DNA from: Paludibacteraceae bacterium
GTDB lineage: Bacteria > Bacteroidota > Bacteroidia > Bacteroidales > Paludibacteraceae
DNA length: 64,000 bases
NCBI GenBank assembly: GCA_017477325.1
Contig: JAFUWV010000004.1
Span: 1 to 64,000 of the forward strand
Direction of reading: 5' to 3'
Numbering within the stretch: position 1 is the first letter of the stretch; the number at the start of each line of letters is the position of its first letter. Under the pieces are notes generated by a model. The model was not told the DNA's origin. It worked only from the letters and a program-made list of their open reading frames with translations, and did no database searches. The translations under genes and the position numbers were made by a program. Below, piece after piece: positions 12,364 to 54,020 of this stretch.

Positions 12364-12545
12364 TGCCGTTGCTCATAAGTTCAAATTATCTTTTAGGAAA
12401 TGAATTATGCCGAATTCAAATCCGCAATTAAATGTTAGAAGTATCCCAAATAATTAATAACGAGACAAAGATACAGCGAACAAAGTGCAGTCTGTTCCGC
12501 TAAATTACGGAATGATTTTCGGGAAAGATGGTGTATTTTTGTACT

Positions 12546-12733
12546 GGTTACTGGTTACAGGTTACTGGTTACAGGTTACTGGATCCACGCTATTATGCCG
12601 CAGATAGAGGTTACTGGTTACTGGCTACTGGCTACTGATCCTCGCTATTATGCCGCAGATAGAGGTTACTGGATCCACGCTATTATGCCGCAACCATCAT
12701 TCTCCACCGGAGAATAATGGGTTACTGGTTACT
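12546..12733 (+). repeat. Composite heptamer array with interspersed 28-base units
   Basis: Five units of GGTTACW (12546-12580) are followed by a 28-base block beginning GGATCCACGCTATTATGCC, then four units of GGYTACT (12609-12636), a second block beginning GATCCTCGCTATTATGCC, one heptamer, and a third, partial block. A 7-bp inverted repeat (ATTCTCC at 12699, GGAGAAT at 12709) and two more heptamers (12720-12733) end the array. It occupies part of the 940-base gene-free region 12305-13246, which otherwise holds the two promoters and the structured leader described separately. Confidence 0.9.
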
Positions 12734-12830
12734 GTTGCGGGTAGGTTGGCCTGATGGTATAATGATGGTATAATGCTGTGAGCATTGTGTCAGATATTTT
12801 TAATTAGCGGATTGTAGGGAATATCACATA

Positions 12831-12862
12831 TTTGCATGTTTCAAGAAAAAGCTTTATCTTTG
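12831..12862 (+). promoter_or_regulatory. Promoter for the first glycan operon
   Basis: TTTG at 12831-12834, a 20-base spacer, and TATCTTTG at 12855-12862 make a consensus Bacteroidetes promoter. Transcription would begin near 12869, leaving a leader of about 375 bases before licD. Confidence 0.82.
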
Positions 12863-13051
12863 TAGGCGAAAGAGAAAGGTGTGTAGAGAGTGAGCGTTGT
12901 GCAACATTGCATTATGTGGTTTGTTAAGATACTTTTCTCATAGTTTTTGTAAACAGAAAATGCATAATAATAATAAATTGCCTATGAATTAACCATGCAC
13001 TGAGCGGCAGTGCAACGACATATTAATTAAGCGTTTTTGCTTGAGAATCTG

Positions 13052-13178
13052 GCATTCTGAAAAACTGGACACTTTTCATAGAATACACCAAGATACAAGT
13101 GAAGATGCTCATGCGTAAGCGTGGGCTTTCTTGTGAATATTCGGTGTATTAGGTAGTCCAGTTAAATCCTCAGAATGC
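13052..13178 (+). ncRNA. Structured 5' leader element upstream of the glycan operon
   Basis: Nested inverted repeats predict one long arm: GCATTCTG (13052) with CAGAATGC (13171); ACTGGAC (13064) with GTCCAGT (13156); AATACACC (13082) with GGTGTATT (13143); ACAAG (13095) with CTTGT (13130); and a terminal hairpin GCTCATGC-GTAA-GCGTGGGC (13107-13126) with wobble pairs. Its last two bases are also the first two of the terminator stem that follows, so the two structures could influence each other. This arrangement fits a cis-acting RNA that controls read-through into licD. I do not recognise a named riboswitch class. Confidence 0.72.
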
Positions 13179-13214
13179 GGATATTCTCAAAATGAGAAAG
13201 TCCGCGTTTTTTTT
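13177..13214 (+). terminator. Intrinsic terminator inside the leader (attenuator candidate)
   Basis: GCGGA-TA-TTCTCA / TGAGAA-AG-TCCGC with a 3-base loop is followed by G and eight T. It lies 33 bases before the licD start, on the same strand, downstream of the promoter. Confidence 0.85.
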
Positions 13215-13246
13215 GTGTATATCTGATAAATGTAGTAAAATCTAAT

Positions 13247-14152
13247 ATGTCAAAAAATAATTTACCTATAAGAATAGAGTTACCTGACAATTTTTTTGAT
13301 GTGGAAATCAGAAGTGGTTATAGGGTTGATGAACGTATGAAGAAAGTATGGGCAGTAGAGTTAGATTTACTCAATGAATTTATTAAGGTATGTGAAGAAA
13401 ATAATCTTAATTACTTTGTTGGTTTTGGAACACTATTAGGAACAATAAGGCATAAGGGTTTTATACCTTGGGATGATGATATAGATGTAATTATGCCAAG
13501 AGAAGATTTTGACAAGTTGCTAAAGATAGGTAATAAAGTATTTAAGCATCCTTATTTTTTTCAAACACCGAGTTCAGAGGAGAAAAGCTTTTTTCGCACT
13601 CATCCGCAGTTGCGCAATAGTCTCACCACAGGAGCAATATTAGAAGATATACATAAAGATATTAATAGAGGAATCTTTATGGATATTTTTGTGTTAGATG
13701 AGGTTTCTGAAGATAAAGTATTAAAGCATAGAGAAAATTTAAATAGATATCGTATTATTGGAAATATTATTACAGCATCACTTAATTTAGAATGTTCGTT
13801 TGATAAGAAAATTAAACGTGTCATTAAGTATATATTTTTCAGACTTTTCTATAACCCCAAGAAGTTGTTTAGTTTATTCCATAAAGAAGCTTCAAAGTAT
13901 AGAGGAAAAGGATATGATTTACTTGCCCATACAACTTTATTGTATCAAGATAGTGCAATATGGAACAAAGCGGATTGGGAAAATTATAAACTTATGACTT
14001 TTGAAAATCTGCCTGTTAGAGTCCCTTTAGGTTATGATAATATATTGAGAAAACATTATGGGGATTATATGACGCCTCATCGTAGTAATGGTAATCTTCA
14101 TGGGGAGATATTGTTGAATCCGGAAGTCTCTTATAAAATAGTTTGCAAATGA
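13247..14152 (+). CDS. LicD-family phosphotransferase
   Basis: The segment YFVGFGTLLGTIRHKGFIPW, followed by DDDIDVIMPREDF, is the nucleotidyltransferase-like core of LicD/fukutin proteins. Members transfer phosphocholine or other phosphate-linked groups from a CDP carrier to surface glycans. The 301-residue length is normal. The gene is clearly more AT-rich than the housekeeping genes around it, which points to horizontal transfer of the locus. With a glycerol-3-phosphate cytidylyltransferase two genes on, CDP-glycerol is a plausible donor; choline uptake genes (licA-C) are not in the window. The stop overlaps the next start (ATGA). Confidence 0.88.
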   Translation: MSKNNLPIRIELPDNFFDVEIRSGYRVDERMKKVWAVELDLLNEFIKVCEENNLNYFVGFGTLLGTIRHKGFIPWDDDIDVIMPREDFDKLLKIGNKVFKHPYFFQTPSSEEKSFFRTHPQLRNSLTTGAILEDIHKDINRGIFMDIFVLDEVSEDKVLKHRENLNRYRIIGNIITASLNLECSFDKKIKRVIKYIFFRLFYNPKKLFSLFHKEASKYRGKGYDLLAHTTLLYQDSAIWNKADWENYKLMTFENLPVRVPLGYDNILRKHYGDYMTPHRSNGNLHGEILLNPEVSYKIVCK

Positions 14153-14984
14153 GTTTACTGATTGAATTTTGGAAATTTTTAAGGCCAATAATAACTCGCT
14201 TAATAGTAAGTTTGATAAAGTTGAGAAAAAAGAATTCATATAAATTAATTCGTGATCTTAACAACTCTCAACTAATAGGAGCACATAAAGGTGCATATGG
14301 TTTCCCTGAGAATACATATGAGGCTGTGAAGAGTGCTTGTGAACAGGGTTATGCAATAATAGAAGTAGATGTAGCAGAAACTGCAGATGGACAGTTAGTG
14401 TTGATTCATGATGATACAATAGATAGAACAAGTGATGGTAGAGGAAGAATTACGGAATTGACTTATTCTCAATTGTCTAAGTTTGATTTCTCTAATGGAT
14501 TATATGGGGGGGTGATTATCAACAAGTTACGATTCCAAGATTGGCAGATATATTAGAGTTGATAAAAGAATATGATGTTATTTTGAATATTGATGTAGCC
14601 CGTACTGATAGATTAAAGAAAGATTCATATTTAAAGATTATTGATTTGATTAAGTTGTATGGGGTAGAAAATAAAGTTTATGTAGAGATTGATTGTAGTT
14701 TAAGTAGCATGACGAAGTGGCTGATGTATGAGCCAAATATAGTATACGAGTTTGCAAATGTTGCAAATGAAATTATATTTAGAAAGATTTTGCCGTTTGC
14801 AAAAGTATTATCTACAGCAGTAATACTAAATAGAAATATTAATCCAACAATAGTAAAACTATCTCATGAAAATGGTTTTGCTGTGTCATTTTGGACAGCA
14901 TCATGTGAAGAATTGATGCAATTAGCAATAAAAGAAGGCTATAATATTATAGGATGTGAATTCAAATATAATTGTACGATATGA
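14149..14984 (+). pseudogene. Glycerophosphodiester phosphodiesterase family gene, frameshifted at a G7 run
   Basis: The first part (ATG at 14149, stop at 14554-14556) carries an N-terminal hydrophobic segment and the GDPD active-site motifs IGAHKGAYGFPENT, IIEVDVAETADG and VLIHDDTIDRTSDG. After the G run at 14506-14512 the family sequence continues in another frame (GDYQQVTIPRLADILELIKE to CEFKYNCTI, end at 14984). One extra G (or two fewer) would restore a single protein of about 278 residues. Both halves are otherwise intact, without further stops, so the gene is either phase-variable, freshly broken, or affected by a sequencing error. The enzyme family cleaves glycerophosphodiesters to glycerol 3-phosphate; HKG replaces the more common HRG. 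Confidence 0.82.
14506..14512 (+). repeat. Seven-G homopolymer at the frameshift
   Basis: A run of seven G inside the GDPD gene marks the exact point where the coding frame changes. Eight G would be in frame. Confidence 0.9.
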
Positions 14985-15385
14985 AAACGATTCTAACATT
15001 TGGAGTTTTTGACTTATTGCATATAGGGCATATCAAGTTGTTTCAGCGAGCAAAACAGTTTGGCGACAAGTTAGTTGTTGCGATACAAGATGATGAATAT
15101 GTATCCAAATATAAATCTAATGTAGAATGTTTTTATAGTACCGAGCAAAGAGCATATATGGTTTCTTCTATTAAATATGTTGATGACATAATTATATATA
15201 GAGATGTAGATAAGGATATTTCTAAGATAGAATTTGACATTCTAGCACTTGGTGAAGACCAAAATCATGTTGGATTTAAAAAAGCCATTCAGTGGTGTTA
15301 TAATAACAACAAGGAAGTTGTTATATTACAAAGGACACAGGGAATATCTTCTTCAATGATAAAGGAATATACAAAGAATAATTAG
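14981..15385 (+). CDS. Glycerol-3-phosphate cytidylyltransferase (TagD-like)
   Basis: This 134-residue enzyme would make CDP-glycerol from CTP and glycerol 3-phosphate. It shows the cytidylyltransferase motifs TFGVFDLLHIGH near the N-terminus and RTQGISSSMIK near the end, the usual positions in TagD/GCT proteins. The length matches single-domain TagD. The ATG at 14981 overlaps the end of the preceding GDPD frame by four bases. Related enzymes act on other small phosphates, so the substrate is inferred from size and from its neighbours. The product could supply LicD. Confidence 0.85.
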   Translation: MKTILTFGVFDLLHIGHIKLFQRAKQFGDKLVVAIQDDEYVSKYKSNVECFYSTEQRAYMVSSIKYVDDIIIYRDVDKDISKIEFDILALGEDQNHVGFKKAIQWCYNNNKEVVILQRTQGISSSMIKEYTKNN

Positions 15386-15390
15386 TCCAC

Positions 15391-16383
15391 ATGCAAAAAC
15401 TCTTAACCATAGTAGTACCAGTATATAAGGTTGAGCCTTATATCAACAAATGCCTTGACTCATGTGTCTTGGAAGATGAGAATATGATGTCTCAGTTAGA
15501 AGTAATCATTGTGAACGATGGTACACCTGATAATTCGGCGGAGATGTCACGTGAGTATGTGAAACGATATCCCAATACCTTTAGACAAATAGACAAAGAA
15601 AATGGCGGACATGGCTCCGCATGGAATGTCGGACTTAAAGAAGCTACAGGGAAGTATCTCCGTTTCCTTGATTCGGATGATTGGTTGACGAATTTGGATA
15701 AGTTGATGAAAAAACTGTTGATGTGTGATGCGGATTGCGTGCTTACGCATATGAACAATTACCATGAGGACACGGAGAAAAACGATAAATGGGCTATTAC
15801 TTCCAGTGGATATGATACATTGCTTAAACTTGATAATTTTGATTTCAAAAAATTAAATGACAAGACAAATGCATTTAATTTCTGGTTCTGCACATACAAG
15901 ACAAGCATACTCAAACCTTTACAGCCTCTTTTTATGGAGAAGGTGATGTATGATGATAGTATATTGTATGCCATACCTTTGTTGTATGCACGAACATATG
16001 TATGTTACAATTTTGTACTATACAACTACCTTACGGGTCGTGTAGGTCAGAGTATGAATGTATCAGTGAAAAGAAAAAATATAGATTCATTGTGTAAGAC
16101 TTATAAATACGAAATGGAGTTTGTCACACAAAATATTTCTGCTGTAGATTCATCAAGACATAATGCTATAAATCGTATAATGGCATCAGATAGTACATTT
16201 TTACTAAGCATGTTGGTATTACTACCATACAAGAAGTATAAAGTAGCCATAAAACAATTTACTCCATACTTTCATTTGGAAAATGATGAGTGGGAGCAAA
16301 GCAAAATGTCTAGACGTTTTTTGACTTTTACACCTACTATATTTTATCTAATAGAAAAACTACGACAACTATTCCATAAATGA
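15391..16383 (+). CDS. GT2-family glycosyltransferase
   Basis: The N-terminus KLLTIVVPVYKVEPYINKCL is the GT-A fold start, and FLDSDDW supplies the metal-binding DxD-type motif. HGSAWNVGLKEATGKYL is the usual connecting segment. The 330-residue cytoplasmic enzyme adds a sugar to a lipid-linked precursor; donor and acceptor cannot be read from sequence. It begins five bases after tagD and overlaps the next gene by four bases. The first bases (ATGCAAAAACTCTTAACCAT) are identical to those of the 18847 gene, a sign of duplication. Confidence 0.9.
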   Translation: MQKLLTIVVPVYKVEPYINKCLDSCVLEDENMMSQLEVIIVNDGTPDNSAEMSREYVKRYPNTFRQIDKENGGHGSAWNVGLKEATGKYLRFLDSDDWLTNLDKLMKKLLMCDADCVLTHMNNYHEDTEKNDKWAITSSGYDTLLKLDNFDFKKLNDKTNAFNFWFCTYKTSILKPLQPLFMEKVMYDDSILYAIPLLYARTYVCYNFVLYNYLTGRVGQSMNVSVKRKNIDSLCKTYKYEMEFVTQNISAVDSSRHNAINRIMASDSTFLLSMLVLLPYKKYKVAIKQFTPYFHLENDEWEQSKMSRRFLTFTPTIFYLIEKLRQLFHK

Positions 16384-17387
16384 AAATATCTTATATCATA
16401 CCTGCTTATAACGCCTCAAAAACAATTCTCTCTTGTATAGACGGTATATGTAAAAACATTCAAGGCGGTGACTTTGAAGTAATTGTTGTTGACGATTGTT
16501 CAACAGATGATACTCGTGAGATAGTCTCAGACTTCGCTTTTAAGCATCATGAAGTAAAATTGATTTGCCAGCCTCAAAATCATCGTCAGGGTGCGGCAAG
16601 AAATATAGGACTGAAGGAAGCAAAAGGTGAGTATATAACATTTGTTGATGCTGATGATATTGTGCTCGATGGAATAAAACATGCATTAGACATGGCAGAA
16701 CAAACTAATGCCGACTTGATATACTGCTCATGTTATCATGAGAAAACGTCGACAGAAGTTGTGTTAAAGGAAATTGATATGGGGGAAAATGTTGTGATGA
16801 CCGGTATTGATTTCTGCGAGGAATATCAACATGAGGGGGCATTTTGGTATCCATGGGGAATACTTTACAGGCGCGAGTGGTTGCAGGCATTGAATTATCC
16901 GTTTATAGAGGATCGGCAACATGAAGACAGAGACTGGCTTGCGTATGTCATGAGCCATGCTAATACAATCGCTAATAGCAAACAGCCTATGTATCCTTAT
17001 GTATGCAATCCCAATTCTACCTGCCGTGCTCCGCGTTATTCGACTATCTTTGATCATGTGGCGAGTGGTATCCGGCATATTGATTTGTCGGAGCAACTGA
17101 AAGCTGAATGTCCGAAACTGTCTGCAACATTGTATGCCTTTGGCATGGAGGAAATTCATCATTCTATCCGTCTGCGCAATCTGACTAAATATCCATGGTC
17201 TGACAACAAACACTTATACGATGCACAATGTCTGCAACCGCTTATGGCTGACATTAAGCGTATGTGCCGCACATATCCAATGCCTACCGAAGTGCGCATT
17301 GTGGCTTATTGCCCATTGCTAACGAAAGCTACTGCTTTTGTTGCCGGTCCTCTGGCATTGTTAATCCGAAAACTGAAACACAAATAA
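16380..17387 (+). CDS. GT2-family glycosyltransferase
   Basis: KISYIIPAYNASKTILSCID, VVDDCSTDDT and TFVDADDIV are the GT-A nucleotide- and metal-binding motifs. The 335-residue length is typical. The start ATG overlaps the upstream stop (ATGA), so the two enzymes are made together. The C-terminus has a hydrophobic stretch (ATAFVAGPLALLI) followed by Lys, which may hold the protein at the membrane. Sugar specificity is not visible. Confidence 0.9.
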   Translation: MKISYIIPAYNASKTILSCIDGICKNIQGGDFEVIVVDDCSTDDTREIVSDFAFKHHEVKLICQPQNHRQGAARNIGLKEAKGEYITFVDADDIVLDGIKHALDMAEQTNADLIYCSCYHEKTSTEVVLKEIDMGENVVMTGIDFCEEYQHEGAFWYPWGILYRREWLQALNYPFIEDRQHEDRDWLAYVMSHANTIANSKQPMYPYVCNPNSTCRAPRYSTIFDHVASGIRHIDLSEQLKAECPKLSATLYAFGMEEIHHSIRLRNLTKYPWSDNKHLYDAQCLQPLMADIKRMCRTYPMPTEVRIVAYCPLLTKATAFVAGPLALLIRKLKHK

Positions 17388-17443: not shown

Positions 17444-18634
17444 CTAATACATCATTCCGAATAACCAAAGCGGGATTTTGTTTTCAAAGCCTATGTCTAT
17501 ACCGTCCGCCACAACATAACTATCGGGAATGTTTGCAATCTGCTTGTAGCCTTTGGTTCGTCCGCCAACCTCAAACAGCCAGTGACTATCAACGAGTAAA
17601 TCTCCTTTTTGTGGCATAGATATAGAGTGACTGGAACTCAACATATTCGCAATATATGTCTCTCGCATCGTGCCTTGGTCGGCTGCAGTGGACAAAGAAT
17701 ACATGATGTTTGTATTGTCAAATAATACCTTTTCAGGCTTTTGCATCATCTTCATTGAATGCTCTTTGGAGAATAAACGCCGAATGATTGCGGCTTGGTT
17801 AAGCAGATCCAATAATTTCATCACTTGGCTTGTAGAAGTTCCCAAGGTTCGAGCTAATGCGGATATATTCAGGGTATAAGGCGATTGTTCTGAGAATATA
17901 CCCAATAACTGCCGTATTTTATAAATAGTCTCATACTCCACATTTGCAACAGAAGGAATATCTTCATTAAGCACTGTATTGATGACACGTTGCAACCGCT
18001 CATCAAAACCATCCCCTTCTTCGATATAAAAAGGATAGTAGCCGTGCCGCAGATAGTTTTCAAAATGTCCCAGCACCTTTACCTGGCCGGTCATTTGGGC
18101 GGCTATCTGGAGATGATGCTGCAATATTTCCTCCAAAGACAGAATAGGCCAATCTGCAATATTCTCCAATTTCAAGTATTCGCGGAAACTCAGCCCTCGC
18201 ATTGTGTACTCTTTACATCGACGGGATAAGTCACCCAATGCGTGCTCAATGCGCAACATGGAAGAACCGGTAACAATCAGATTTAGCCGTGGAAACGAAT
18301 CGTAGATATTCTTTATCTCCTGCTGCCAGTTGTGATATTTATGAATCTCATCTATGAAAAGATGCGTTCCGCCATGCGTATAGTGGTATTCTGCCAAATC
18401 AATTAGCGAATGATTAGCAAACCAGATGTGATCGGCAGAAACATACAATGCTGTGGATGTGTCCTCAAAGGCAGTAGCAATGTGTTGTAATAACATAGTT
18501 GTCTTGCCGACGCCTCTTGACCCTTTGAGTATTATCAGCCGATTCTTCCAATTGATACTTTTGTACAAATAACGGAAAGAGGAAGGTCGGCTTTCTCCTA
18601 ACAAACGATTGTAGTTTTCGATTAAACGATTCAT
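17444..18634 (-). CDS. AAA+ ATPase with DUF4143 domain
   Basis: Walker A is ILKGSRGVGKTTMLL (residues 38-46 core) and Walker B is HLFIDEIHKY (93-96 core), followed by the sensor-like LIVTGSSMLRIEH. The C-terminal half contains the winged-helix and DUF4143 region (SQVMKLLDLLNQAAIIRRLF, FEVGGRTKGYKQI). At 396 residues it is a complete member. These ATPases are abundant and patchily distributed in Bacteroidetes; their role is not settled. It lies on the opposite strand between two glycosyltransferase pairs, with its own promoter, and has no role in sugar chemistry that I can see. No inverted repeats or transposase flank it. Confidence 0.87.
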   Translation of the reverse strand: MNRLIENYNRLLGESRPSSFRYLYKSINWKNRLIILKGSRGVGKTTMLLQHIATAFEDTSTALYVSADHIWFANHSLIDLAEYHYTHGGTHLFIDEIHKYHNWQQEIKNIYDSFPRLNLIVTGSSMLRIEHALGDLSRRCKEYTMRGLSFREYLKLENIADWPILSLEEILQHHLQIAAQMTGQVKVLGHFENYLRHGYYPFYIEEGDGFDERLQRVINTVLNEDIPSVANVEYETIYKIRQLLGIFSEQSPYTLNISALARTLGTSTSQVMKLLDLLNQAAIIRRLFSKEHSMKMMQKPEKVLFDNTNIMYSLSTAADQGTMRETYIANMLSSSHSISMPQKGDLLVDSHWLFEVGGRTKGYKQIANIPDSYVVADGIDIGFENKIPLWLFGMMY

Positions 18635-53875: not shown

Positions 53876-53881
53876 CACCGT

Positions 53882-53952
53882 GTTTTTCATGGTATTAGAT
53901 TTAAGGTTAAGTAAAGATTGTGGTTGTCGCGATGACAACCCTTCTTTTTTTT
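53882..53952 (+). ncRNA. Candidate intergenic small RNA of about 70 bases
   Basis: A promoter ending at 53875 is followed within 80 bases by an intrinsic terminator: stem GGTTGTC (53922-53928) and GACAACC (53934-53940) with a 5-base loop, then a T-rich tail ending in eight T (53945-53952). No open frame of any length lies between. The unstructured middle (TTAGATTTAAGGTTAA near 53896) could be a pairing region. The start is estimated from the -7 box. I believe similar sequences exist in other Bacteroidales but cannot name a family. Confidence 0.65.
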
Positions 53953-54020
53953 GTATATACAGGTAAGATACGGGGGTGGGGAATGTGTGATGAGAAAGCG
54001 AAGGCAAGGGGGGAATACCA

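Follow-up and report, generated by a model that had tools for sequence, protein, structure and literature searches.

Closest described systems

Transcription attenuators of the trp and his type carry four RNA strands that compete for the pairings 1:2, 2:3 and 3:4, and competition between strands ahead of a terminator is an already known type of mechanism. Leaders before glycan operons are typical for specialised NusG paralogues of the UpxY, LoaP or RfaH kind. In Bacteroides, the tetQ leader of element CTnDOT reportedly encodes a leader peptide of three codons. This leader is described as a case of translational attenuation by tetracycline. Palindromic candidate RNAs of Bacteroidetes located near genes are characterised as terminator-like in another source (PMC8040213).

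The locus considered here lies in the window, i.e. the whole stretch of 64,000 nucleotides that was analysed, where a copy of a leader RNA occupies positions 13030-13216 before a licD glycan operon. It has in common with the trp/his type the pairings 1:2, 2:3 and 3:4, with 3:4 located before a U tract. Unlike that type, it has no leader peptide with regulatory codons over strand 1 and no conserved reading frame across strands 1 and 2 (alignment A5), its mini-ORF ends 37 nt before strand 1 in the window and varies in its codons, and its hairpin loops are complementary. What it shares with the tetQ leader of Bacteroides is a very short ORF ahead of structured leader RNA; unlike tetQ, it occurs in many copies, before diverse genes, with a terminator, and its mini-ORF is recognised by pattern in 0/31 copies outside the order (Bacteroidales). 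Like the leaders served by LoaP, UpxY or RfaH it precedes glycan operons, but it does not seem to need a specialised NusG paralogue.

The palindromes of PMC8040213 are alike in being terminator-like, in Bacteroidetes and near genes, and are set apart by their neighbours, those named (TPR, RuvA, TonB) being different from the element's; an earlier catalogue entry for the element is possible. No paper was recognised as describing the element in a literature scope that leaves out supplements and most subscription papers, and an earlier description is possible. Scans with Rfam 15 found no family at its gathering score over the element in the window, three sub-threshold matches, all on the opposite strand, in 12700-13300 to E 5, and no family at cut-off over the element in 10 of its loci or, to E 1, in 11 loci from outside the order, in agreement with the original prediction, which knew of no named class that fits. 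DUF805b RNA (RF02914), a separate 35-nt motif downstream of the element, matches neither the element itself nor any part of the window, and DNA searches of plasmids and phages with 12863-13246 gave no match. What appears to be new is the RNA itself, along with the complementarity of its loops, its class-wide spread and the absence of a leader peptide that reads codons.

Extent and fold of the leader

An attenuator-like leader had been proposed at 13052..13214. The element stands, whereas its extent does not: the conserved part starts at 13030, or near 12981 if the mini-ORF upstream is counted, and the whole is larger and better conserved than could be seen from the single sequence, which gave no view of the four-strand logic, the complementary loops, the mini-ORF or the class-wide spread. 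The parts named at that time are present, namely the promoter-like motif at 12831-12862 (TTTG at 12831-12834 and TATCTTTG at 12855-12862), the arms of the outermost helix (GCATTCTG at 13052-13059 and CAGAATGC at 13171-13178), the GTAA-capped inner hairpin (13107-13126) and, before licD, a terminator composed of a hairpin and T8 (13207-13214), 32 nt 5′ of the licD ATG (13247). The fold itself is stable, with -61.1 kcal/mol for 13052-13225 against a shuffled mean of -35.4 (z -7.4, 0/200 shuffles as good); the whole leader, 12863-13250, reaches z -6.3 (0/100 shuffles as good). Its helices are the following.

13052-13060 with 13170-13178, + strand: P1, outermost helix of the long hairpin
13064-13070 with 13156-13162, + strand: P2, hairpin A loop with hairpin B loop
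13082-13089 with 13143-13150, + strand: P3
13048..13092, + strand: hairpin A, in competition with P1 and P3; its outer stem is 13048-13052/13088-13092 and its inner stem 13058-13063/13073-13078
13151..13170, + strand: hairpin B, an AGG/CCT stem around the second P2 strand

Hairpin A consists of the P1 5′ strand paired with a stretch that ends in the P3 5′ strand. Partner swapping over 105 non-redundant copies, a test that ignores kinship and in which unpaired controls range from -3.7 to +3.5, gives z -33.9 for P1, -15.3 for P2, -41.9 for P3, -15.0 for P4 and -11.2 for P5, and for hairpin A -14.2 (stem), -9.2 (outer) and -11.4 (inner). Hairpin B, nearly invariant, has no covariation in the same copies (z +1.3). 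In alignment A5 (105 sequences), 61% of cells are paired in P1, 98.3% in P2, where all 7 pairs have two-sided changes, and 95.9% in hairpin B. The P2 loops swap between copies (CUGGAC/GUCCAG, CUCGAC/GUCGAG, CUUCGAC/GUCGAAG), and since the hairpin A loop and the hairpin B loop, as the two P2 strands, stay complementary through such swaps, they could also form kissing loops.

Compensatory changes in relatives, on which the original prediction had made its case depend, occur in both fold states. In A5, the long-hairpin state has two-sided changes at 25/32 of its pairs, against a shuffled mean of 18.6, and an alternative state at 23/31, against a shuffled mean of 14.0; 0/500 shuffles are as high in either. 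Paired cells make up 81.0% of the long-hairpin state and 88.5% of the alternative state; with partners displaced by one to three columns, the figure for either state is 32-47%.

Copies and their distribution

By DNA search, the leader has relatives in numerous genomes of the genus, and the window's own genome contains a second copy (L039), 72% identical over the leader, which precedes a pyruvyl transferase and four glycosyltransferases. Among the 38 BLAST hits, L046 (cut off), L052 and one of L050 (both weak) were omitted from alignments A1/A2; the fetched loci L054, L055, L056 and L078 gave no match in the BLAST search, and opposite-strand rows, two of A3 and four of A4, were left unused. A covariance model built from 36 copies (R1) locates the element in 167/178 genomes of the genus, with up to 13 matches in one, and in 79/295 genomes drawn over the order. 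A second model, R2, built from 105 copies, finds six copies in the window's own genome and matches in 35/345 genomes drawn over the phylum, 33 of which belong to other orders of the same class; E-values of both models are rough. Copies outside the order have the same motifs, arranged in the same succession. A pattern scan of named genomes yields at least 80 loci, and Bacteroidaceae, Prevotellaceae, Paludibacteraceae, Tannerellaceae, Rikenellaceae, Muribaculaceae, Barnesiella, Coprobacter and Culturomica are among the matches listed. The working set of 105 derives from 135 copies, one of them too short, through a similarity filter (score 0.88) that left 107 and the omission of two that were cut off.

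Four competing strands

The core of the alternative state came to light by forcing an alternative fold, in which 1:2 and 3:4 replace the 2:3 pairing that lies inside the long hairpin. The strands involved are these.

13030..13043, + strand: strand 1, with 14 contiguous pairs to strand 2 in the window
13096..13114, + strand: strand 2, the 5′ side of P4/P5, of which 13096-13109 pairs with strand 1
13119..13132, + strand: strand 3, the 3′ side of P5/P4, partner of strand 2 or strand 4
13194..13206, + strand: strand 4, second partner of strand 3; the 3:4 stem ends at the U tract
13207..13214, + strand: U tract, at least 5 U in 8 nt behind strand 4 in 104/105 copies

Swapping over the 105 copies supports exactly these three pairings, with z -9.2 for 1:2, -8.5 for 2:3 and -11.7 for 3:4, and no covariation for 1:4 (+3.5), 2:4 (-1.3) or 1:3 (-1.4). 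The same holds outside the order, where 30 copies were used (one of 31 was skipped, and segments were cut by pattern): -5.5, -4.6 and -7.2 for the three pairings, and +2.5 (1:4), -1.4 (2:4) and -1.4 (1:3) for the others. Since models R1 and R2 both contained 2:3 and neither contained 1:2 or 3:4, the selection of copies is biased only toward 2:3. Strands 1 and 2 are both conserved, and as a result 89% of the swapped 1:2 pairs likewise reach -6 kcal/mol. The first pair of 3:4 is G-C in 84 copies, A-U in 9, G-U in 8, C-G in 1 and unpaired in 3. Where strand 3 has an A at 13124, strand 4 has the matching U in 6/8 cases; P5 alone is insufficient for this pattern, since the P5 partner stays U in 103/105 copies. 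Strands 1 and 4 are complementary too, but a selected 1:4 helix was rejected for lack of covariation in two tests (z 0.0 and +3.5). The overlap first suggested, between the long arm and the terminator, does exist in shared bases, though only at 13176-13178; the better supported competition is that of strands 1-4.

On these grounds, the element is read as a cis-acting transcription attenuator of a kind absent from Rfam, with a probability of about 0.58. As the leader is made, strand 1 would pair with strand 2 around hairpin A, strand 3 would then be free to pair with strand 4, and the stem ending in the U tract would stop transcription before licD. Pairing of strand 2 with strand 3 inside the long hairpin, together with P1, P2 and P3, would block the 3:4 terminator and let RNA polymerase read on. 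Complementarity between the hairpin A loop and the hairpin B loop may set the timing of the choice between folds or fix its outcome, and candidate triggers are a ligand, a protein or an sRNA and, in Bacteroidales, also translation of the mini-ORF. That 3:4 terminates, that 2:3 antiterminates and which of the states is the default are all inferred. Because the strands pair competitively and one of the folds is a putative stop signal, the leader may decide the production of surface or exported proteins.

Folded in pieces, in imitation of a growing chain, the window sequence forms 1:2 with hairpin A (z -3.4) and later the long 3:4 stem (z -4.3), the loop of which is long (about 60 nt). A 106-nt piece keeps 11 of the 14 1:2 pairs alongside the inner hairpin P5, so that 1:2 and P5 are mutually exclusive only in part. 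When whole copies are folded with loop-loop pairs left out, the long hairpin lies below the 3:4 state in 102/105 copies, by a median of 13.5 kcal/mol (7.4 in the window); kissing pairs would narrow this gap.

Read-out behind strand 4

In the window, the stem before the U tract is stable in two forms, with T8 behind both: the 3:4 stem at -29.6 kcal/mol and a local hairpin.

13176..13206, + strand: local terminator hairpin, -16.5 kcal/mol, z -6.5, strong in the window copy

Only 29% of the 105 copies have a local terminator at -4 kcal/mol or better. In the window copy, it could stop transcription in either fold state; since the hairpin fits beside the 2:3 fold, the window copy would need an extra disruption of it, or else be tuned low.

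A different read-out, in which strand 4 and a downstream partner control access to the start codon and the element switches translation or mRNA stability, is the foremost of the alternatives, though a doubtful one. It draws on the covariation of the variable part of strand 4 with sequence located past the U tract (z -9.5 in 105 copies, z -6.7 outside the order), a pairing that reaches -6 kcal/mol or better in 61% of copies and in 37% of swapped pairs, and on weak U tracts in some copies; outside the order, strand 4 is not followed by four T in a row in 3/31. Against it stand the U tract in 104/105 copies and the window copy itself, which lacks the downstream pairing (-2.8) and has the strong local terminator instead.

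A further downstream part is DUF805b RNA, which Rfam places directly behind the element in 4/10 scanned loci (L043, L066, L071, L072). A DUF805b-like motif occurs within 130 nt behind the element in 21/105 copies (0.1 expected) by a pattern loosened after the sequences had been seen, and in 6/105 by the strict pattern; DUF805b may be a downstream module of these leaders. Since the downstream pairing, the local terminator and the DUF805b-like motif vary between copies, the read-out may differ as well. In eight loci outside the order (L251, L254, L255, L257-L261), a hairpin seen by eye lies behind the 3′ end of the element, and its loop (such as GGGAC, GGAAC or GGGUU) matches strand 4 (GUCCC, GUUCC or AACCC), also by eye.

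Promoter and mini-ORF

Three features precede the conserved element in the window.

12831..12862, + strand: promoter of Bacteroidetes type, TTTG and TATCTTTG, its -7 box ending 167 nt before the conserved element
12984..12992, + strand: mini-ORF ATG AAT TAA, behind a GCCTATG-type motif
12997..13013, + strand: small hairpin GCACTG/CAGTGC between mini-ORF and element, with similar inverted repeats elsewhere by eye

The same type of promoter is found at the glycan-operon copy L039. The full motif is present in the 250 nt 5′ of the element in 29/101 copies, where 2.4 would be expected and the opposite strand yields 8; it lies 69-91 nt before the element in 21 of the 29, as against 167 nt in the window. 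Within the 250 nt leading up to the element, 66/101 copies have a -7 box, as against 3/101 within the 75 nt behind it. Just 5′ of the leader promoter, at 12542-12672, lie tandem repeats of TACTGGT and of a 55-bp unit (2.2 copies).

A GCCTATG-like motif is recognised in 67/103 copies (3.6 expected), several of which are close relatives. A stop follows within six codons in 61/67 of them, as compared with about 36% expected for shuffled ATGs, at codon count 2 (31 copies), 3 (10), 5 (15), 6 (3) or 1 (2) and never at 4, and TAA, TAG and TGA are all used. From these sequence features, the mini-ORF appears to be translated. It does not form the centre of the switch, since by pattern the motif is absent from 36/103 copies and from 31/31 outside the order. 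A leader peptide spanning the inner hairpin (in the window, ATG CTC ATG ...) was rejected as a candidate, its first ATG being ACG in many copies of A5.

Genes behind the element and remaining explanations

The next ORF is co-directional with the element in 124/131 copies, at a median distance of 73 nt from element to start codon (n=91), whereas upstream ORFs are mixed in orientation (72 to 53). Outside the order, downstream ORFs are co-directional in 29/31 cases and upstream ORFs point away in 23/30. Together with the covariation and the promoters upstream, this orientation supports a cis-acting leader, and the originally proposed attenuator-like structured leader of a glycan operon is upheld by fold, covariation, gene orientation and promoters. 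By a crude self-made signal-peptide rule, the first downstream protein looks exported in 69/91 cases, against 201/595 for other ORFs of the same loci, and the next ORF starts behind four further copies in the window's genome read by eye as exported or membrane. When 29 of the 91 first proteins, taken at even steps, were compared with Pfam at E 0.001, 15 had no match; among the remainder are OMP barrels, two BspA-type LRR proteins, MBOAT, GtrA and a lipocalin-like protein, as well as LytTR, a serine recombinase and a helicase-like protein. In L184 (3783-4976, Pfam) and, judging by eye from a similar start, L192 (7350 onward), a serine recombinase gene stands next behind the element.

This diversity bears on the reading of the element as a ligand-binding riboswitch, whose putative aptamer would be the loop-loop core of hairpins A and B. 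The two-state fold and loops kept complementary through pair swaps would suit such a switch, but the genes share no pathway and suggest no ligand, which makes it unlikely.

The original prediction offered the leader as a cis-acting sensor, which it may be, or as target of an antitermination factor. A binding site for an antiterminating NusG paralogue would accord with the position before a glycan operon, yet is highly improbable from the gene content: exactly one NusG is present in 31/41 genomes of the genus, which makes a specialised paralogue an unlikely trigger, two or three are present in 5, and none was found in 5, including the window's incomplete genome. Genomes with 13, 11, 9 and 9 copies of the element (G150, G140, G109, G193) have one NusG each.

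Equally slight are the prospects of an independent small RNA with its end at 13214, licD being served by a promoter of its own. Promoter and strong terminator do frame such an RNA, but only 32 nt separate the U tract from licD, the ORFs behind the element are co-directional with it, and -7 boxes are far scarcer behind it than before it. Some copies outside the order had seemed from their alignment to be standalone small RNAs, a candidate that was rejected with a co-directional ORF found further downstream in 18/20. A DNA palindrome without RNA function (repeat, MITE or bidirectional terminator) is the least probable of all, for although the element is partly palindromic and R1 matches the opposite strand weakly in a few loci, G-U pairs are freely used on one strand and orientation is fixed to the next ORF and not to the upstream one.

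A broader proposal can be made tentatively, namely that a single four-strand switch with complementary loops and no codon-reading peptide is shared throughout Bacteroidia and brings one common signal to variable genes for exported proteins and surface glycans; like loops may then also allow pairing in trans between copies. In the gut, in soil and in water, Bacteroidia belong to the major community members, and only part is known of how they select the surface and exported proteins they make. With up to 13 copies found per genome, defined competing folds and a working covariance model, the element delineates a candidate regulon that can be listed, and tested in species under cultivation. If the mechanism is true, attenuators gain a four-strand type that works without codon reading, and the mini-ORF and the DUF805b motif gain a setting.

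In the window, Pfam identifies the following genes behind the leader.

13247..17387, + strand: licD, a GDPD-like gene, a cytidylyltransferase-like gene and two family-2 glycosyltransferase genes

Two further glycosyltransferases follow behind an AAA_14/DUF4143-type ATPase gene (17444-18634, - strand) that lies between the glycosyltransferase genes. The GDPD-like gene consists of two overlapping ORFs in different frames on the + strand, 14143-14556 and 14541-14984, of which the first matches positions 7-69 of the 244 of the Pfam GDPD profile and the second has no Pfam match; a frameshift or an assembly error is possible. Elsewhere in the window, at 53880-53954 (+ strand), the FopS small RNA (RF04319) is detected with 77.7 bits against a cut-off of 56.
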